Shown here: piece after piece, positions 8,297 to 15,493 of the stretch
Layout: each line of letters opens with the position of its first letter
Position numbering within the stretch: position 1 is the stretch's first letter
Notes under the pieces: generated by a model
Seen by the model: the letters and a program-made list of their open reading frames with translations, nothing else
Told to the model about the DNA's origin: nothing
The model's database searches: none
Source: Ignavibacteria bacterium
GTDB lineage: Bacteria > Bacteroidota > Ignavibacteria > Tepidaquicellales > Tepidaquicellaceae
Direction: 5' to 3'
Assembly (NCBI GenBank): GCA_016929695.1
Contig: JAFGII010000071.1
Span: forward strand, 1-39,255
DNA: 39,255 nt
Made by a program: the position numbers and the translations under genes

Positions 8297-9310
8297 TTAA
8301 TCTTTTATATCAACTTTATTTTCTACCCAGCTGATACGAGCGTTTCTTGTATCTTTCAGCCTGAACCTTACATTTTTGTCATTTAATGTTACTTTAAAAG
8401 CATTTGAGTTTAATGTTCTCAAGTAAAAATATTCCTTCGCTCTCCATTCTCTTTCCTGTCCTTTCTTCAGTTCCACAAGTTCTGTTTCTCTTGTGATTTT
8501 TTCATCAGTAGCCACAATAATCCTGCCATCTTCTCTTGCAACAACTTTCAGCGTAATTTTATTTTTCAAGTCTGCTTCTTCTTTTTCTTTTGCCAGTTTT
8601 AAGGAATCTATTGTCGTTTTTGAAATATTCTCATCTTCAACATCCTGCGGAGATTGTCTGACAATTTCCACATTATCCTCTGAATTAAAGAAGATTGTCT
8701 TGGCAAAATAAAATATCCCGAATCCGATTAATAATATCACAACAAATATACCGGCATATTTCAGATATTTAATATTATCACTGAATGATTTTGAAAAGTG
8801 AGGTTTTTTATCGGTATCCTGCTCCGAAAAACTTTCTTTTTCAAACTGAATTTTCCGGGGCCTTGAATACAACTGTTTGTCTTCGGGAAGTTCATATACA
8901 TCCTCTGCCTCTTCAACTTTTTCTTTATCCTCTGTTATTATCTCCGGAATTATAACGGCTTCAGGCTCTTCCTTTTCTTTTATTATATCTTCTCTTACTT
9001 CTTCAGTTACTATTTCAGGTTCTTTTTCTTCCTTATCTGCTTTGGGTTTTGATATACTCTTTTTGACTGTGTATCGTCCCGTTCTCGCTGAGTCAAAATC
9101 CTTTATTACCTGTTCGGGATTCAGATTTACACATCTGGCATATTGCTTGATAAATGCCTTTATGTAAGGTAACGGCTGAAAATTAAAATCACCGCTTTCA
9201 ATTTTTTCAAATATCGTGTAGTGTAAACGGGTTTCACTTGCCATATCCATTAAAGTCAAGCCCGCTTTTTCCCTTGCTGATTTTAAATCATTTGCGAATT
9301 TATTTAACAT
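8297..9310 (-). CDS. rodZ: RodZ-like cytoskeletal/HTH membrane protein
   Basis: The 337-residue protein has the RodZ architecture. An N-terminal Cro/C1-type helix-turn-helix domain (about 1-75, LKSAREKAGLTLMDMASETR) is followed by a long acidic, probably disordered linker (about 80-180), one membrane segment (about 184-206) and an extracytoplasmic DUF4115-like beta domain (about 250-330). RodZ links MreB to the cell-wall elongation machinery and helps set rod shape. No mreB or other shape gene is nearby, so the role rests on the domain layout. It is upstream of ligA in the same direction and divergent from the RNB nuclease gene. Some FCB proteins of this layout are annotated only as helix-turn-helix proteins. 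Confidence 0.8.
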   Translation of the reverse strand: MLNKFANDLKSAREKAGLTLMDMASETRLHYTIFEKIESGDFNFQPLPYIKAFIKQYARCVNLNPEQVIKDFDSARTGRYTVKKSISKPKADKEEKEPEIVTEEVREDIIKEKEEPEAVIIPEIITEDKEKVEEAEDVYELPEDKQLYSRPRKIQFEKESFSEQDTDKKPHFSKSFSDNIKYLKYAGIFVVILLIGFGIFYFAKTIFFNSEDNVEIVRQSPQDVEDENISKTTIDSLKLAKEKEEADLKNKITLKVVAREDGRIIVATDEKITRETELVELKKGQEREWRAKEYFYLRTLNSNAFKVTLNDKNVRFRLKDTRNARISWVENKVDIKD

Positions 9311-9539: not shown

Positions 9540-12356
9540 ATGATGAAAACCGATTTCCCCGACGGAGTTTTAAAAGAAGCAAATGATATATCCGTGGATA
9601 AGACTTATCTCGGAACACTGGAACAGACCGAGGGCATAACTATTGACGATGTTAACTCCAGAGATATTGATGACGGTTTTTTGTTGGAAACAGATTCTGA
9701 CGGATGGGTACTTTCGGTTTCTGTTGCCGATGCTGCATCAGTTATAAAAAAAGATTCTCCTGTTTATAATTTTGCAAAACTTGCCGTTCATACACAATAT
9801 TTACCCGATCGCAAAAAGCCGATGCTTCCCCCTGCTCTGTCTGAAAATAAGTTAAGTCTTCTTGAGAATAAATTACGACCTGCAGTTACTTTCATAATTA
9901 CAATATCTTCAAATCTTGAAATAACAGATTTAAAAATAAAAAAAACCGCTTTTAAAAACAGAAGGAAATTATCTTACCAACTGACGGACGAGATACTTGC
10001 AAGAGAAAAACCGGATAAAGAATTCGGACATCTCGCTGAATGCTATCACCTTGCTAATTTACTGCTGGAAAAAAGAAGGGAAAACGGAGCACTCGTGATA
10101 TATGATTTTATCAGGGGCATGTTCACAAATGAAGAAGGGCAAATAATAATTAATCGCAATAACAGGCTTCACATGGCGAATATTATTGTTCAGGAATTTA
10201 TGATACTTACCAATTCAACTGCCGCAGAATATTTAATAAAAAGGAACAGACAACTTGTATTAAGAAACCACACTGCAAAAAGTACTACTCCACCGCGAGA
10301 TGAAATTTACAGTCAGTATTTACTCGCGAAAACCAATCCTAATACAATTGATACTTTAAAAAAGCGAATTGAACTGTGGTTCGAAAAAGCAGAATACAGT
10401 ACAAAATTAAGAGGGCATTACGGTTTGAATTTACCCGCATATACACATTTAACATCCCCGCTGAGAAGATTCCCTGACCTTGTGAATCAGTATATTATTA
10501 ATTCTTTTATTTCGGGCAAAAGAACACCGTATTCAAAAGATAATTTAAATAAAATTGCTTTAAGGATTAACAGAAATATTCAGAAAATCAGACGCTCAAA
10601 AAGCAATCATCTGAAGGAAAAAGCCGTAAGGGAAATGCTTGATATTGCGGAAAGTCCCGAGCCGGAAACTTTTGAGTTACTTGATTCAAAAAAGTTTAGA
10701 ACAATTTTGCATCATTCCTGTATTGCCGGTAACATCGGGAGCGGATTGCTGAAAGAAACAGAAAAAAGAATATTATCAGGCAATGCAGGTCCTGAACATC
10801 TTGTTTGCCTTCTGTTTGAATTGAAAAAGGAAAATATTCATTTTAACAAATTATTTAATCTGGCATTTGAATTCTTAAAAAGCAAACCCGAATTTGCGAG
10901 AAGTATTATAAATATTGCTGAACAGAAAAAATATCTTAACGGTATTAAATCAGAAACAAAAAGATTAAACGGAGGTTTTGCGTATATTATATCAGTTATT
11001 AAAAATAATGTACAGTATTCCAGTCCGTCAGTACAAATTAAAAATTCCCGCAGAAATTCAGTTTATTCGGAAACATTCAATTTTCTCAAAAATTATTTAG
11101 AAAACAGGCTTGTCCCTCTGACAGAGATGAAACTGCACGAAAGCACAATAAAAAAATCAGATAACAAAATAAAAGACAAACAGGGAAGTGAAACCGTAAT
11201 ATCCAAAAAAGAAAAATATGCTGCAAAGGTAAATTACACGGGAAAGTTAATTGAAGTCTGTATGAAAAATAAAATGCTTTCTCTTCCGGAATTTGTTTAT
11301 AATCAGTCCGGACAACCTAACAGCCCTGTTTTTGACTGTAAATGTACAGTTAAGTCCGGTGCCGTAATATTTGAAACTGAATCAAGCGCAGGAAGAAAAT
11401 TAGCGGCAAAACATCTTGCTTCAAAAGAGATGAAAGAGAAACTCAGGAAGTATCTTGATGAATATAAAGAGAGGCAGGTAAAACAGGAAAACACGGTTTA
11501 CATAAAAGAAAAACAGTCAGATAAAGAAGTGATTAATAATTACGTCGGTATTCTGGAAAACATTTCCGTCAGATACAACAATTTTTCTTCTCCCGAATAC
11601 AACTTCACAGAAGAAATAACAGATGAGGGATACCTTCATACCTGTGATTGTAAAATCAGTTTCAATAATCATTTATACTCCGCCGGTGATACACGGAAAA
11701 GCAAAAAGAACGCAAAGCAAGCAGCCGCATATAAACTAATTAAATCTTTATCCGAAAAAAACATAATCGGAAAAAATTTAAAAGGTGAATATGAAGTATT
11801 AAAATCCGCAGGATGGAAACAGGATTTAATTCTGAACTATTCAGGTACGCTGAATAAAATCACACTAATGCACAATAATTTTTCAGAACCCGAATACGAA
11901 TTTCTAATTTCTGAAACTCAAAACAGACCGGAAATTACTTACAGATGCAGATTATTAGCGGATAACAGGGAAATAATAACCGAATATACCTCTAATAAAA
12001 AGTCCATCTCTAAACAAAAAACCGCTTTTCTTATGATAAAAAAATTACTCGAAGGATTTGCCGAAGAAATTCATAAAACTCAAAATGTTAATGAAAATAT
12101 AAATTTATATTTCAGTAAACTTAAAGAAAAGTTAAAACCCGAAAATCACAATAATTTCAGATACCTATTATTCAGATGGCTTTATCCGAAAAATCCGTTT
12201 TTCTCGTGTTTATCGCAACTTTGTTTTGATAACTCAGATATTGAAATTATTACCACGGAAAAATCAGTTGTGGAAGCGGTAAGTAAATCCGAGAAAATAC
12301 TCATCGGTTATTTAAAGGACGATGCACACAGTCAGACCGTCATTGACACGGGTTAA
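9540..12356 (+). CDS. RNase II-type (RNB) ribonuclease with three C-terminal dsRBD-like domains
   Basis: The 938-residue protein begins directly with an RNB exoribonuclease core (about 30-320). The four metal-binding aspartates of RNase II (D201, D207, D209, D210) are present as D36, D42, D44 and D45 in TIDDVNSRDIDDGF. Also present are QYLPDRKKPMLPPALSE (86-102) and the conserved LTSPLRRFPDL (304-314, Arg309). There is no cold-shock domain before it and no S1 domain after it. Instead, residues about 564-638, 665-738 and 764-838 look like three double-stranded RNA-binding domains. The first has YTGKLIEV, LPEF and AGRKLAAKHLASKEM; the second has YVGILENI, SPEYNF and KSKKNAKQAAAYKLIKSL; the third has YSGTLNKI and EPEYEF. 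The region 375-530 is helical and of unknown fold. It is probably an active 3'-5' exonuclease directed to structured RNA. The dsRBD assignments are by eye. Confidence 0.85.
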   Translation: MMKTDFPDGVLKEANDISVDKTYLGTLEQTEGITIDDVNSRDIDDGFLLETDSDGWVLSVSVADAASVIKKDSPVYNFAKLAVHTQYLPDRKKPMLPPALSENKLSLLENKLRPAVTFIITISSNLEITDLKIKKTAFKNRRKLSYQLTDEILAREKPDKEFGHLAECYHLANLLLEKRRENGALVIYDFIRGMFTNEEGQIIINRNNRLHMANIIVQEFMILTNSTAAEYLIKRNRQLVLRNHTAKSTTPPRDEIYSQYLLAKTNPNTIDTLKKRIELWFEKAEYSTKLRGHYGLNLPAYTHLTSPLRRFPDLVNQYIINSFISGKRTPYSKDNLNKIALRINRNIQKIRRSKSNHLKEKAVREMLDIAESPEPETFELLDSKKFRTILHHSCIAGNIGSGLLKETEKRILSGNAGPEHLVCLLFELKKENIHFNKLFNLAFEFLKSKPEFARSIINIAEQKKYLNGIKSETKRLNGGFAYIISVIKNNVQYSSPSVQIKNSRRNSVYSETFNFLKNYLENRLVPLTEMKLHESTIKKSDNKIKDKQGSETVISKKEKYAAKVNYTGKLIEVCMKNKMLSLPEFVYNQSGQPNSPVFDCKCTVKSGAVIFETESSAGRKLAAKHLASKEMKEKLRKYLDEYKERQVKQENTVYIKEKQSDKEVINNYVGILENISVRYNNFSSPEYNFTEEITDEGYLHTCDCKISFNNHLYSAGDTRKSKKNAKQAAAYKLIKSLSEKNIIGKNLKGEYEVLKSAGWKQDLILNYSGTLNKITLMHNNFSEPEYEFLISETQNRPEITYRCRLLADNREIITEYTSNKKSISKQKTAFLMIKKLLEGFAEEIHKTQNVNENINLYFSKLKEKLKPENHNNFRYLLFRWLYPKNPFFSCLSQLCFDNSDIEIITTEKSVVEAVSKSEKILIGYLKDDAHSQTVIDTG

Positions 12357-12456
12357 GTAATTTTATGAACAATCAGCAGTATATGCTATATATACTTCAT
12401 TTAATTCAATGCTTTTATTATTGAATATTCAATAAATTAAGCATATTTTTTATATT

Positions 12457-13155
12457 ATGAATCTGGATTTTATAAGAAAAAATTATGTTGATTTAAAATC
12501 TAATATAAAATTGTTGTGTCAAAAATACGGACGCGATGAGAATGAAATAAGAATTGTTGCGGTCAGCAAAACTTTTTCTCCTGAATATATAATTGAACTT
12601 CTATCTGCAGGACATACGGATTTCGGCGAAAACAGGGTCCAGGAACTGATTTCTAAAAAAGATGAAATTAAAAATAAAAAAAATATAAACTGGCATTTAG
12701 TGGGACATTTGCAAACCAATAAAGTTAAGTATATTATTGATTTCATAAAATTAATTCATTCTGTTGACAGTTATAAACTCGCTCTTGAAATTAATAATCA
12801 TGCAAACAAAATTCAAAAAGTGATTGAAGTGCTGGTTCAGGTAAATACAAGCGGAGAAAGCCAAAAATCCGGTATTGAACCCGAAGAAGCTGCAAGATTG
12901 TGTAAATCAATATCTGTTCTGGATAATATCAAACTGAGAGGGTTAATGACCATCGGAATGCTGACAGAAGACGAAAAAATTATAAGAAACAATTTCAGAT
13001 GTTTGAAAAATATATACGACGAACTTAAAACAATTTATAATAATTTTAATACACTATCAATGGGCATGACCTCAGACTATCAAATTGCAATAGAAGAAGG
13101 CTCAAATATGATTCGGGTAGGAAGTGCTCTGTTTGGGAAGAGGATTTATAATTAA
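12457..13155 (+). CDS. yggS: YggS/PLPBP-family pyridoxal phosphate homeostasis protein
   Basis: The 232-residue protein matches the YggS/YlmE fold-type III PLP-binding family. It shows the PLP lysine motif AVSKTF (Lys38), FGENRVQE, INWHLVGHLQTNKVKYI, VLVQVNTSGESQKSG, LRGLMTIG and the C-terminal LSMGMTSDYQIAIEEGSNMIRVGSALFG (quoted as the family tail around 209-228). Members have no known catalytic reaction and buffer the pool of pyridoxal 5'-phosphate in the cytoplasm. It is followed after 28 bases by divIVA, the same pairing seen in the Firmicute ylm/divIVA cell-division cluster. The family call is certain. Confidence 0.95.
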   Translation: MNLDFIRKNYVDLKSNIKLLCQKYGRDENEIRIVAVSKTFSPEYIIELLSAGHTDFGENRVQELISKKDEIKNKKNINWHLVGHLQTNKVKYIIDFIKLIHSVDSYKLALEINNHANKIQKVIEVLVQVNTSGESQKSGIEPEEAARLCKSISVLDNIKLRGLMTIGMLTEDEKIIRNNFRCLKNIYDELKTIYNNFNTLSMGMTSDYQIAIEEGSNMIRVGSALFGKRIYN

Positions 13156-13824: not shown

Positions 13825-14625
13825 ATGCCGAAACGGATTAGGGAAGCCACTGATTATATAAAGAGAAAAACAGAATGCGAATATGAGACAGGAATAATAC
13901 TCGGAACAGGACTCGGGGGAATAGTAAAGAATATCAATCTTGACCTTGCCCTGTCTTATTCCGAAATACCTGATTTTCCGCTTTCTACAGTAGAATCTCA
14001 CAACGGGAAATTATTATTCGGAAATTTGGAAGGCGTTAAACTCGTAGCTATGCAGGGCAGATTTCACTTTTACGAAGGGTATTCACATTCAGAAGTAACA
14101 TTCCCCCTGCATATTTTCAAAAATTTAGGCGTAAAATATCTGATTGTTTCAAATGCTTGCGGATGTGTAAATCCCCAGTTTAAAAAAAATGATTTAATGA
14201 TTATTACTTCACATATCAATTTACATTTTACTTCACCTTTAATAGGGTTTAGAACAAATAACTACGTCTCAACCGACAAATTCTATTCAAAGAAATTAAT
14301 CCGTATTGCCGAAAATGCAGCCTATGAACTTGGTATTGATATAAAAAAAGGCGTTTACTCCTCGGTTCAGGGTCCGAATCTTGAAACTAAAGCAGAATAT
14401 CGGTTTATAAAGAAAACAAGTGCCGATGTAGTGGGTATGTCAACAATCCCGGAAATTATTGTGGCACATAAACTCGGAATAAACTGTCTCGGTATTTCAA
14501 TTGTGACAGATGAGGGGTTCCCTGATACAGTTAAAGTAGCTAAACTCAAAGATATACTTGAGTCTGCATCAATCGCCGAACCGAAACTTACTAAACTGAT
14601 AACAGCAGTAGTCAAAAAAATATAA
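13825..14625 (+). CDS. punA: Purine nucleoside phosphorylase (PNP/MTAP family)
   Basis: The 266-residue trimeric-type phosphorylase cleaves purine nucleosides with phosphate to base and ribose-1-phosphate, for salvage. Visible motifs are the phosphate loop ILGTGLGG (25-32), GRFHFYEG (78-85), VSNACGCVNP (108-117), GPNLETKAEYR (183-193, with the base-binding Glu191) and VGMSTIPEIIVAHKLG (203-218). At the position of human PNP Asn243 it has Asp229 (SIVTDEG). Asp here is typical of MTA phosphorylases and can favour 6-amino purines, but I recall many Bacteroidota PNPs also have Asp, so the substrate is open. It is 5 bases after divIVA and 25 bases before a degenerate paralogue. Confidence 0.9.
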   Translation: MPKRIREATDYIKRKTECEYETGIILGTGLGGIVKNINLDLALSYSEIPDFPLSTVESHNGKLLFGNLEGVKLVAMQGRFHFYEGYSHSEVTFPLHIFKNLGVKYLIVSNACGCVNPQFKKNDLMIITSHINLHFTSPLIGFRTNNYVSTDKFYSKKLIRIAENAAYELGIDIKKGVYSSVQGPNLETKAEYRFIKKTSADVVGMSTIPEIIVAHKLGINCLGISIVTDEGFPDTVKVAKLKDILESASIAEPKLTKLITAVVKKI

Positions 14626-14650: not shown

Positions 14651-15493
14651 ATGACTGAACAAAAGAAAAAGGTTATAATATCAAAAAAATATCTGGATAA
14701 ATTTATTCCATATAATTTTAAACCTGAAACCGCAATAATAACGAACAGCAACTATAAATTACCCTCATATCTGAAAATTCTTAAAAAAATTAATCTGAAC
14801 TCCATCCCACCCGCTATAGATATCAAGGATGATATTAAAAGGTATTTTATTTTTGCAAAGTTTCGCACAAAAAGTATTATCATTATTAACGGCAGATATC
14901 ATTTTTATGAAGGCGCAACAATGAGAGAACTCGGACATTATATTTACCTTTTAAAAGTTATTGGTATCAGGAAAATTATTTCTATTGATGAAGTTGCAAA
15001 TCTTAATCCAAGATTCAAACCGGGTGAAATTGCACTTGTATATGACCAGATTAACCTTATGGGCGATAATCCCCTGATAGGCGAAAACGATGAAACACTG
15101 GGAATCCGCTTTCCTGATATGAGTAATGCATATTCTTCTGATTTGTTCAATAAAGCATATAAAATATTCCAGAATCTTAAAATTAAAATAAATGAATCCG
15201 TATATCTCGGTTTAATTGGTCCGGAATCCGAAACTGAAGCCGAGGCAAGATTTTACAGGGAAATCGGTTCGGATATAGCAGGATATTCATTAATTCCTGA
15301 AAATATTTCAGCCGTACATTCAGGAATTAAATTCTCAGGCATATGTATGATTACAAGGGATATAATTGCGGATAAAATTGCCGAGGATAATTCTTCGGAA
15401 AAAGAAAAACAGTTTATGAAATCAAAATCTTTCAAAAAAGCAAAAGAAAAGTCGGATTTAATATTAAAAAACATTTTATCTGCAGATTTTTAA
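14651..15493 (+). CDS. Degenerate purine nucleoside phosphorylase paralogue
   Basis: The 280-residue protein is homologous along its length to the phosphorylase just upstream: NGRYHFYEGATM (80-91), ANLNPRFKPGEIALVYDQIN (116-135), NPLIG, GPESETEAEAR (190-200) and SLIPENISAVHSG. The active site has changed. The N-terminal GTGLG phosphate loop is replaced by TNSNY. The Met of VGMS is Tyr212, and the Asn/Asp that contacts the base is Arg236. Arg82, His84 and Glu198 remain. The reading frame is intact and the fold motifs are kept, so it is under selection, but it is probably not an ordinary phosphorylase. It could be a regulatory partner or use another substrate. It probably arose by tandem duplication and is likely cotranscribed with its neighbour. 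Confidence 0.8.
   Translation: MTEQKKKVIISKKYLDKFIPYNFKPETAIITNSNYKLPSYLKILKKINLNSIPPAIDIKDDIKRYFIFAKFRTKSIIIINGRYHFYEGATMRELGHYIYLLKVIGIRKIISIDEVANLNPRFKPGEIALVYDQINLMGDNPLIGENDETLGIRFPDMSNAYSSDLFNKAYKIFQNLKIKINESVYLGLIGPESETEAEARFYREIGSDIAGYSLIPENISAVHSGIKFSGICMITRDIIADKIAEDNSSEKEKQFMKSKSFKKAKEKSDLILKNILSADF

Follow-up and report, generated by a model that had tools for sequence, protein, structure and literature searches.

A predicted RNB exoribonuclease with a tail of double-stranded RNA-binding domains, and the plasmid-rich family to which it belongs

The accepted picture of RNB enzymes is of single-strand feeders with OB folds as guards and, to our knowledge, few bacterial enzymes other than RNase III contain dsRNA-binding domains. 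A gene on contig JAFGII010000071.1 of an Ignavibacteria bacterium combines the two, which raises the question of what such an enzyme would degrade and how its gene came to lie there. The gene occupies positions 9540..12356 of the window, the 39,255-nucleotide stretch of DNA analysed here (coordinates are on the + strand unless stated otherwise), and its open reading frame encodes a protein of 938 aa with Pfam RNB and dsrm matches. We consider it rather probable that the product is a horizontally acquired, hydrolytic 3'-5' exoribonuclease whose double-stranded RNA-binding domains (dsRBDs) aim the RNB domain at structured or duplex RNA.

The RNB catalytic domain spans residues 29-325 (9624..10514; Pfam E 4.4e-60) and is modelled by AlphaFold mostly at pLDDT 90+. 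RNase R is the Foldseek match of this domain (5xgu, 1.7e-23) as well as the profile match of the protein in the PDB (1e-74). In an alignment with RNase II of Klebsiella and the RNase R encoded elsewhere in the host genome, residues D36, D42, D44 and D45 (9645..9674) correspond to the catalytic aspartates D201, D207, D209 and D210 of RNase II, so that all four RNB aspartates are present, as had been read from the sequence alone. R309 (10464..10466) corresponds to the catalytic R500, and Y87 and Y146 align with Y253 and Y313. The four aspartates are invariant in the relatives described below (48/48 family rows), as are the equivalents of Y253 and R500, while the Y313 position varies between Y and H. 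The published active site of RNase II includes these aspartates and the arginine (PMC3293843); with both intact, the window protein should be active. The RNB domain with its four aspartates and R500 equivalent places the protein in the RNB superfamily.

Canonical RNase R and RNase II carry cold-shock domains at the N-terminus and an S1 domain at the C-terminus (PMC4042491), an arrangement that is missing from the window protein in both the Pfam search and the AlphaFold model. OB_RNB, CSD2 and S1 all lack a Pfam match at E<=1, which bears out the earlier remark that the OB-fold feeders are absent. Against the NCBIfam equivalogs, the protein scores 164.3 bits for RNase R (cut-off 597.9) and 113.9 bits for RNase_B (cut-off 641.9).

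The RNB domain is followed by an all-helical linker domain, residues 333-450 (10536..10889), with AlphaFold helices at pLDDT about 90, which has no Pfam match and is conserved and alignable through the family. Farther along lie three dsRBDs: u1, residues 564-640 (11229..11459), u2, residues 666-740 (11535..11759), and u3, residues 764-840 (11829..12059). A profile built from other organisms' dsRBDs alone detects them over residues 564-637, 666-739 and 766-837, with E values of 2e-18, 8e-13 and 7e-8, respectively. Pfam dsrm (PF00035) matches three stretches of the protein with E 4.3e-16 and 59.7 bits, against a gathering score of 23, and both score and fold assign them to this family. The units are mutually homologous when compared with shuffles (u2-u3 z=18.4, u1-u3 z=9.8, u1-u2 z=7.8), and u3 is a duplicate of u2.

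In the AlphaFold model, u1 and u2 adopt the alpha-beta-beta-beta-alpha fold at pLDDT about 93. The first model used 24 relatives, in whose alignment u3 was thinly covered; refolded with dsRBD rows, u3 takes the same fold at pLDDT 93-97, a result better read as compatibility than as independent proof, since the added rows were paralogous dsRBDs. The assignment of u3 as a dsRBD would stand on sequence evidence even without the refolded model. Foldseek matches u3 to Loquacious, TARBP2 and the dsRBD-dsRNA complex 1di2 (TM 0.74 by target length); the protein also matches the tandem dsRBDs of Loquacious (2e-21) and TARBP2 in the PDB by profile, and TARBP2, Loquacious and DRB4 by Foldseek (8e-10 to 4e-7). 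Structure prediction thus gives a dsRBD fold to each of the three units that the sequence-only reading had described as dsRBD-like, in line with the profile and the z scores, yet the count was too low and a fourth unit was missed.

This unit, u0, is a degenerate dsRBD fold at residues 451-523 (10890..11108), modelled as alpha-beta-beta-beta-alpha at pLDDT about 88 and undetected in the window protein by unit-versus-unit comparison and by the dsRBD profile. Its equivalent is found by the dsRBD profile in several relatives at 1e-11 to 1e-7 (L057 1e-11, L058 4e-11), and a Caenarcanales relative (L074:5743-8367) has four sequence-detectable dsRBD units (469-860); in some family members, u0 is thus a true dsRBD. 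The linkers between units are of low pLDDT. The C-terminal region, residues 850-938 (12087..12353), is modelled as low-confidence helices, and these last 90 residues are absent from relatives.

Basic residues (Lys/Arg) are present in alpha-2 of each clear unit (RKLAAK in u1, KKNAK in u2, KKSISK in u3). The GPxH minor-groove loop, which is typical of strong dsRNA binders, is altered to GQPN in u1 (N for H) and absent in u2 and u3, so the affinity of u1-u3 for duplexes may be modest.

The first relatives were reached by a plasmid search with the C-terminal part of the protein. The Acaryochloris pMB04 protein is homologous to the window protein from end to end (27% over 644 aa), and that of Vibrio coralliilyticus p380 combines RNB with three dsrm stretches (Pfam). 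When a family alignment was used for a pattern scan of 84,980 species genomes, 38 loci were recovered, in Omnitrophota, Ktedonosporobacter (Chloroflexota), Thiotrichaceae, Saprospiraceae, cyanobacteria, Caenarcanales, WWE3, Glycomyces, Pseudomonas, Vibrio, Rhodanobacteraceae and two Micrarchaeota. The phyla with RNB-dsrm proteins include Omnitrophota, Chloroflexota, Bacteroidota, Cyanobacteria, Pseudomonadota, Actinomycetota and WWE3. With a Saprospiraceae query, 71 plasmid records gave matches; in 35 (Rhodococcus, Acaryochloris, Pseudomonas and Streptomyces among others) the match covered at least 80% of the query and took in the dsRBD region. Five further plasmid members (Rhodococcus, Streptomyces) were confirmed to have RNB and dsrm. 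Members are often encoded on large plasmids and have 1-4 detectable dsRBD units each. Among 24 aligned members, RNB is matched in all, dsrm in 22, and OB_RNB, CSD2 or S1 in none. The alpha-2 lysines are retained in most relatives, and the relatives' u1 has GPxH and KKxAK intact.

The window gene is one of a widespread and apparently uncharacterised family, and not unique. The earlier supposition that no enzyme of this architecture had been characterised agrees with the literature found, including two reviews that cover RNB enzymes (PMC12320835, PMC10989914), in which the architecture is not described; the architecture search nonetheless showed it to be fairly common, with dozens of plasmid records besides the genome loci. 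The two Micrarchaeota members (L059:5635-7278, L060:5644-7278) end after u0 without a Pfam dsrm match and are an archaeal short form of the lineage. In Glycomyces (L077-L092 except L085), the gene lies on the chromosome, with partial synteny, in 15 species, in contrast to the plasmid pattern elsewhere. A plasmid RNB protein of Synechococcus elongatus (L051) was excluded as a member, having no dsrm and a long branch. Viral contigs gave zero relatives in the single-protein and alignment scans, and phage records matched only the RNB part of apparently ordinary RNases, with no match to the dsRBD part.

The family also has a signature of its own within the RNB domain. Q218 (10191..10193) is a family-specific Gln at the position of RNase II Glu390, a residue that, with Tyr313, has a proposed role in the choice of RNA versus DNA. 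Gln is found there in 12/12 plasmid members chosen independently of it and Glu in 38/40 canonical enzymes; the genome scan required Gln at this position, so its 36 rows are non-independent on this point. In a neighbouring position, an RNH motif, the Asn of which is residue 243 (10266-10268), stands where canonical enzymes have R[VI]H. In a tree of RNB domains, a branch separates all 32 family rows from 12 canonical enzymes; its SH-aLRT of 88 is moderate and comes from a quick search that included few canonical rows, and the family appears to group apart from canonical RNase II/R. The window protein has all the features that define the family, namely RNB, the helical linker, u0, dsRBDs, Gln at the Glu390 position and RNH.

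In the window genome, the gene occupies the divergent junction between rodZ and yggS. A rodZ-like gene (8297..9310, - strand; HTH_25 and RodZ_C) forms the left edge of the insertion, and a yggS-like gene for a PLP-binding protein (12457..13155; Ala_racemase_N, synteny) the right edge; the insertion lies to the left of an element of about 60 bp upstream of yggS (12395..12456) that is common to two congeners (L106, L107). Both congeners have ligA-rodZ and yggS-divIVA-pnp in collinear order, and zero genes lie between their rodZ and yggS. An orthologue is absent from all 43 other genomes of the order and, with a profile of linker and tail, from 394 other genomes sampled from the phylum; this profile has a full-length match in the window genome only, the others covering the dsrm part alone, mostly in frames of RNase III length. 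An 828-aa dsrm frame in one genome of the phylum (G218) was rejected as a relative, being an RNase III gene whose frame stays open farther upstream. With an empty site in the congeners and no orthologue elsewhere in the order, the gene was either gained here or lost from the two congeners and from all other members of the order; gain is the simpler account, and the best reading is that the gene was horizontally acquired as a one-gene insertion. Its base composition resembles that of its neighbours, no terminal repeats of at least 10 bases were found at the insertion, and no tRNA lies near the gene. The genome has one other RNB gene, for an apparently complete RNase R, and a dsrm match in a 279-aa frame that is presumably RNase III. 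Farther downstream, two adjacent ORFs of similar length (13825-14625 and 14651-15493), a pair kept in the congeners, resemble, judged by their translations, tandem paralogues of purine nucleoside phosphorylase, of which the second has diverged.

The domains, their folds, the catalytic residues, family membership and the insertion site were established by computation; that the dsRBDs bind RNA, that the enzyme acts on duplexes and that it has an accessory role, carried by mobile DNA, and not one in core RNA turnover, we infer. The OB-fold feeders CSD1, CSD2 and S1 have given way to the helical linker and the string of dsRBD-fold units. In the proposed mechanism, units u1-u3 would grip the A-form duplex within a structured or double-stranded RNA and hold it at the entrance of the RNB channel, into which a short 3' single-stranded end would thread; degradation would then run up to the duplex, or through it by wedging and trapping. 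With alpha-2 lysines kept in u1-u3, it is plausible that the tail would target the enzyme to duplex RNA. In RNase R, the RNB domain alone can unwind, S1 and a K/R-rich accessory region bind duplex RNA, and structured RNA is degraded starting from a short 3' overhang (PMC12320835), so the earlier view that RNB enzymes stall at duplexes was overstated. More tentatively, the proteins could form a family of RNB exonucleases specialised for dsRNA or hybridised RNA, spread across bacterial phyla on plasmids, that act as stand-alone enzymes against antisense, phage or invading dsRNA, with built-in dsRBDs in place of a helicase or OB feeders.

Other explanations would assign the tail or the nuclease a different task. 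In the manner of type-B dsRBDs, those of the tail may mainly contact proteins or dock on a structured RNP such as the ribosome or tRNA, with the nuclease acting on single-stranded 3' ends. Consistent with this, u0 is degenerate, the GPxH loop is missing from u2 and u3, and u2 has a further Pfam match to Dicer_dimer (6.7e-8), a dsRBD-type family that makes protein contacts. Canonical RNase R is reported to dock on the ribosome (PMC10901742). The alpha-2 lysines of u1-u3 and most relatives, together with GPxH and KKxAK in the relatives' u1, speak against this account, which is rather unlikely. It is quite unlikely that the protein is a redundant RNase R paralogue serving ordinary bulk RNA turnover, with the tail as an alternative RNA grip: it shares its fold and catalytic residues with RNase R, which already degrades structured RNA, but the family has signatures of its own and is placed separately from canonical RNase R/II, and the host retains its own RNase R. 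The Glu390-to-Gln change in the pocket could also point to an RNA-binding regulator without catalytic activity, as yeast Ssd1 is, a reading that is highly improbable with the four aspartates and the Y253 and R500 equivalents intact and invariant.

The neighbourhoods in other genomes bear on whether the enzyme could be an accessory defence or counter-silencing nuclease of plasmids and islands that destroys dsRNA or structured RNA of phages or competing elements. In an Acaryochloridaceae locus (L062:3154-9970), a type II DNA methyltransferase lies upstream, and a CBASS SAVED-endonuclease effector and an oligonucleotide cyclase lie immediately downstream, so that the gene is apparently inside a defence island; on a Streptomyces plasmid (L054), dndC is near the gene. 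These two contexts are suggestive only, most loci having no such neighbours. The patchy, plasmid-rich distribution and the one-gene insertion in the window genome also speak for a defence role. Against it, no PADLOC model matches the window protein, PHROGs gives the protein no defence assignment, and no partner gene is conserved across loci, except for synteny within Glycomyces and near-identical plasmid regions. Neighbours are mostly unrelated or housekeeping genes, the latter surrounding the window gene, and in Glycomyces the gene is a conserved chromosomal one. We judge a defence role unlikely and prefer an acquired exoribonuclease aimed at structured or duplex RNA.

A widespread family that has exchanged the OB feeders for up to four dsRBD units allows a direct test of how a helicase-free exonuclease can be targeted to duplex RNA. 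It may point to plasmid-carried dsRNA turnover in bacteria, and its enzymes could serve as reagents for the removal of structured RNA. In addition, a functional hypothesis is now available for many plasmid genes labelled merely "RNB domain-containing ribonuclease".

Among known systems, RNase R and RNase II (TIGR02063, TIGR00358; PDB 5xgu, 2ix1) are the best PDB sequence and fold match of the window protein and resemble it in RNB fold and catalytic residues, whereas the window protein lacks CSD1, CSD2 and S1 and has the dsRBD tail, Gln at the Glu390 position and the RNH motif. The nearest precedent for a feeder swap is DrII, an RNase II family enzyme of Deinococcus radiodurans (2r7d), in which an HTH domain replaces both CSDs (PMC5758563); that module is N-terminal, while the dsRBD string of the window protein is C-terminal. 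The dsRBD units match those of TARBP2, Loquacious, DRB4 and bacterial RNase III by profile and fold, but are joined here to an RNB exonuclease, whereas the known proteins are carriers or RNase III endonucleases. The same architecture is found in the "RNB domain-containing ribonuclease" proteins of Acaryochloris, Vibrio coralliilyticus, Pseudomonas pSTY, Rhodococcus and Streptomyces plasmids, most of which have 1-3 Pfam dsrm stretches; the window protein differs from them in having three clear units with a degenerate fourth, and an extra 90 residues at the C-terminus. The RNB-dsrm proteins are a broad family named by domain alone, of which the window protein is a member and not a one-off.
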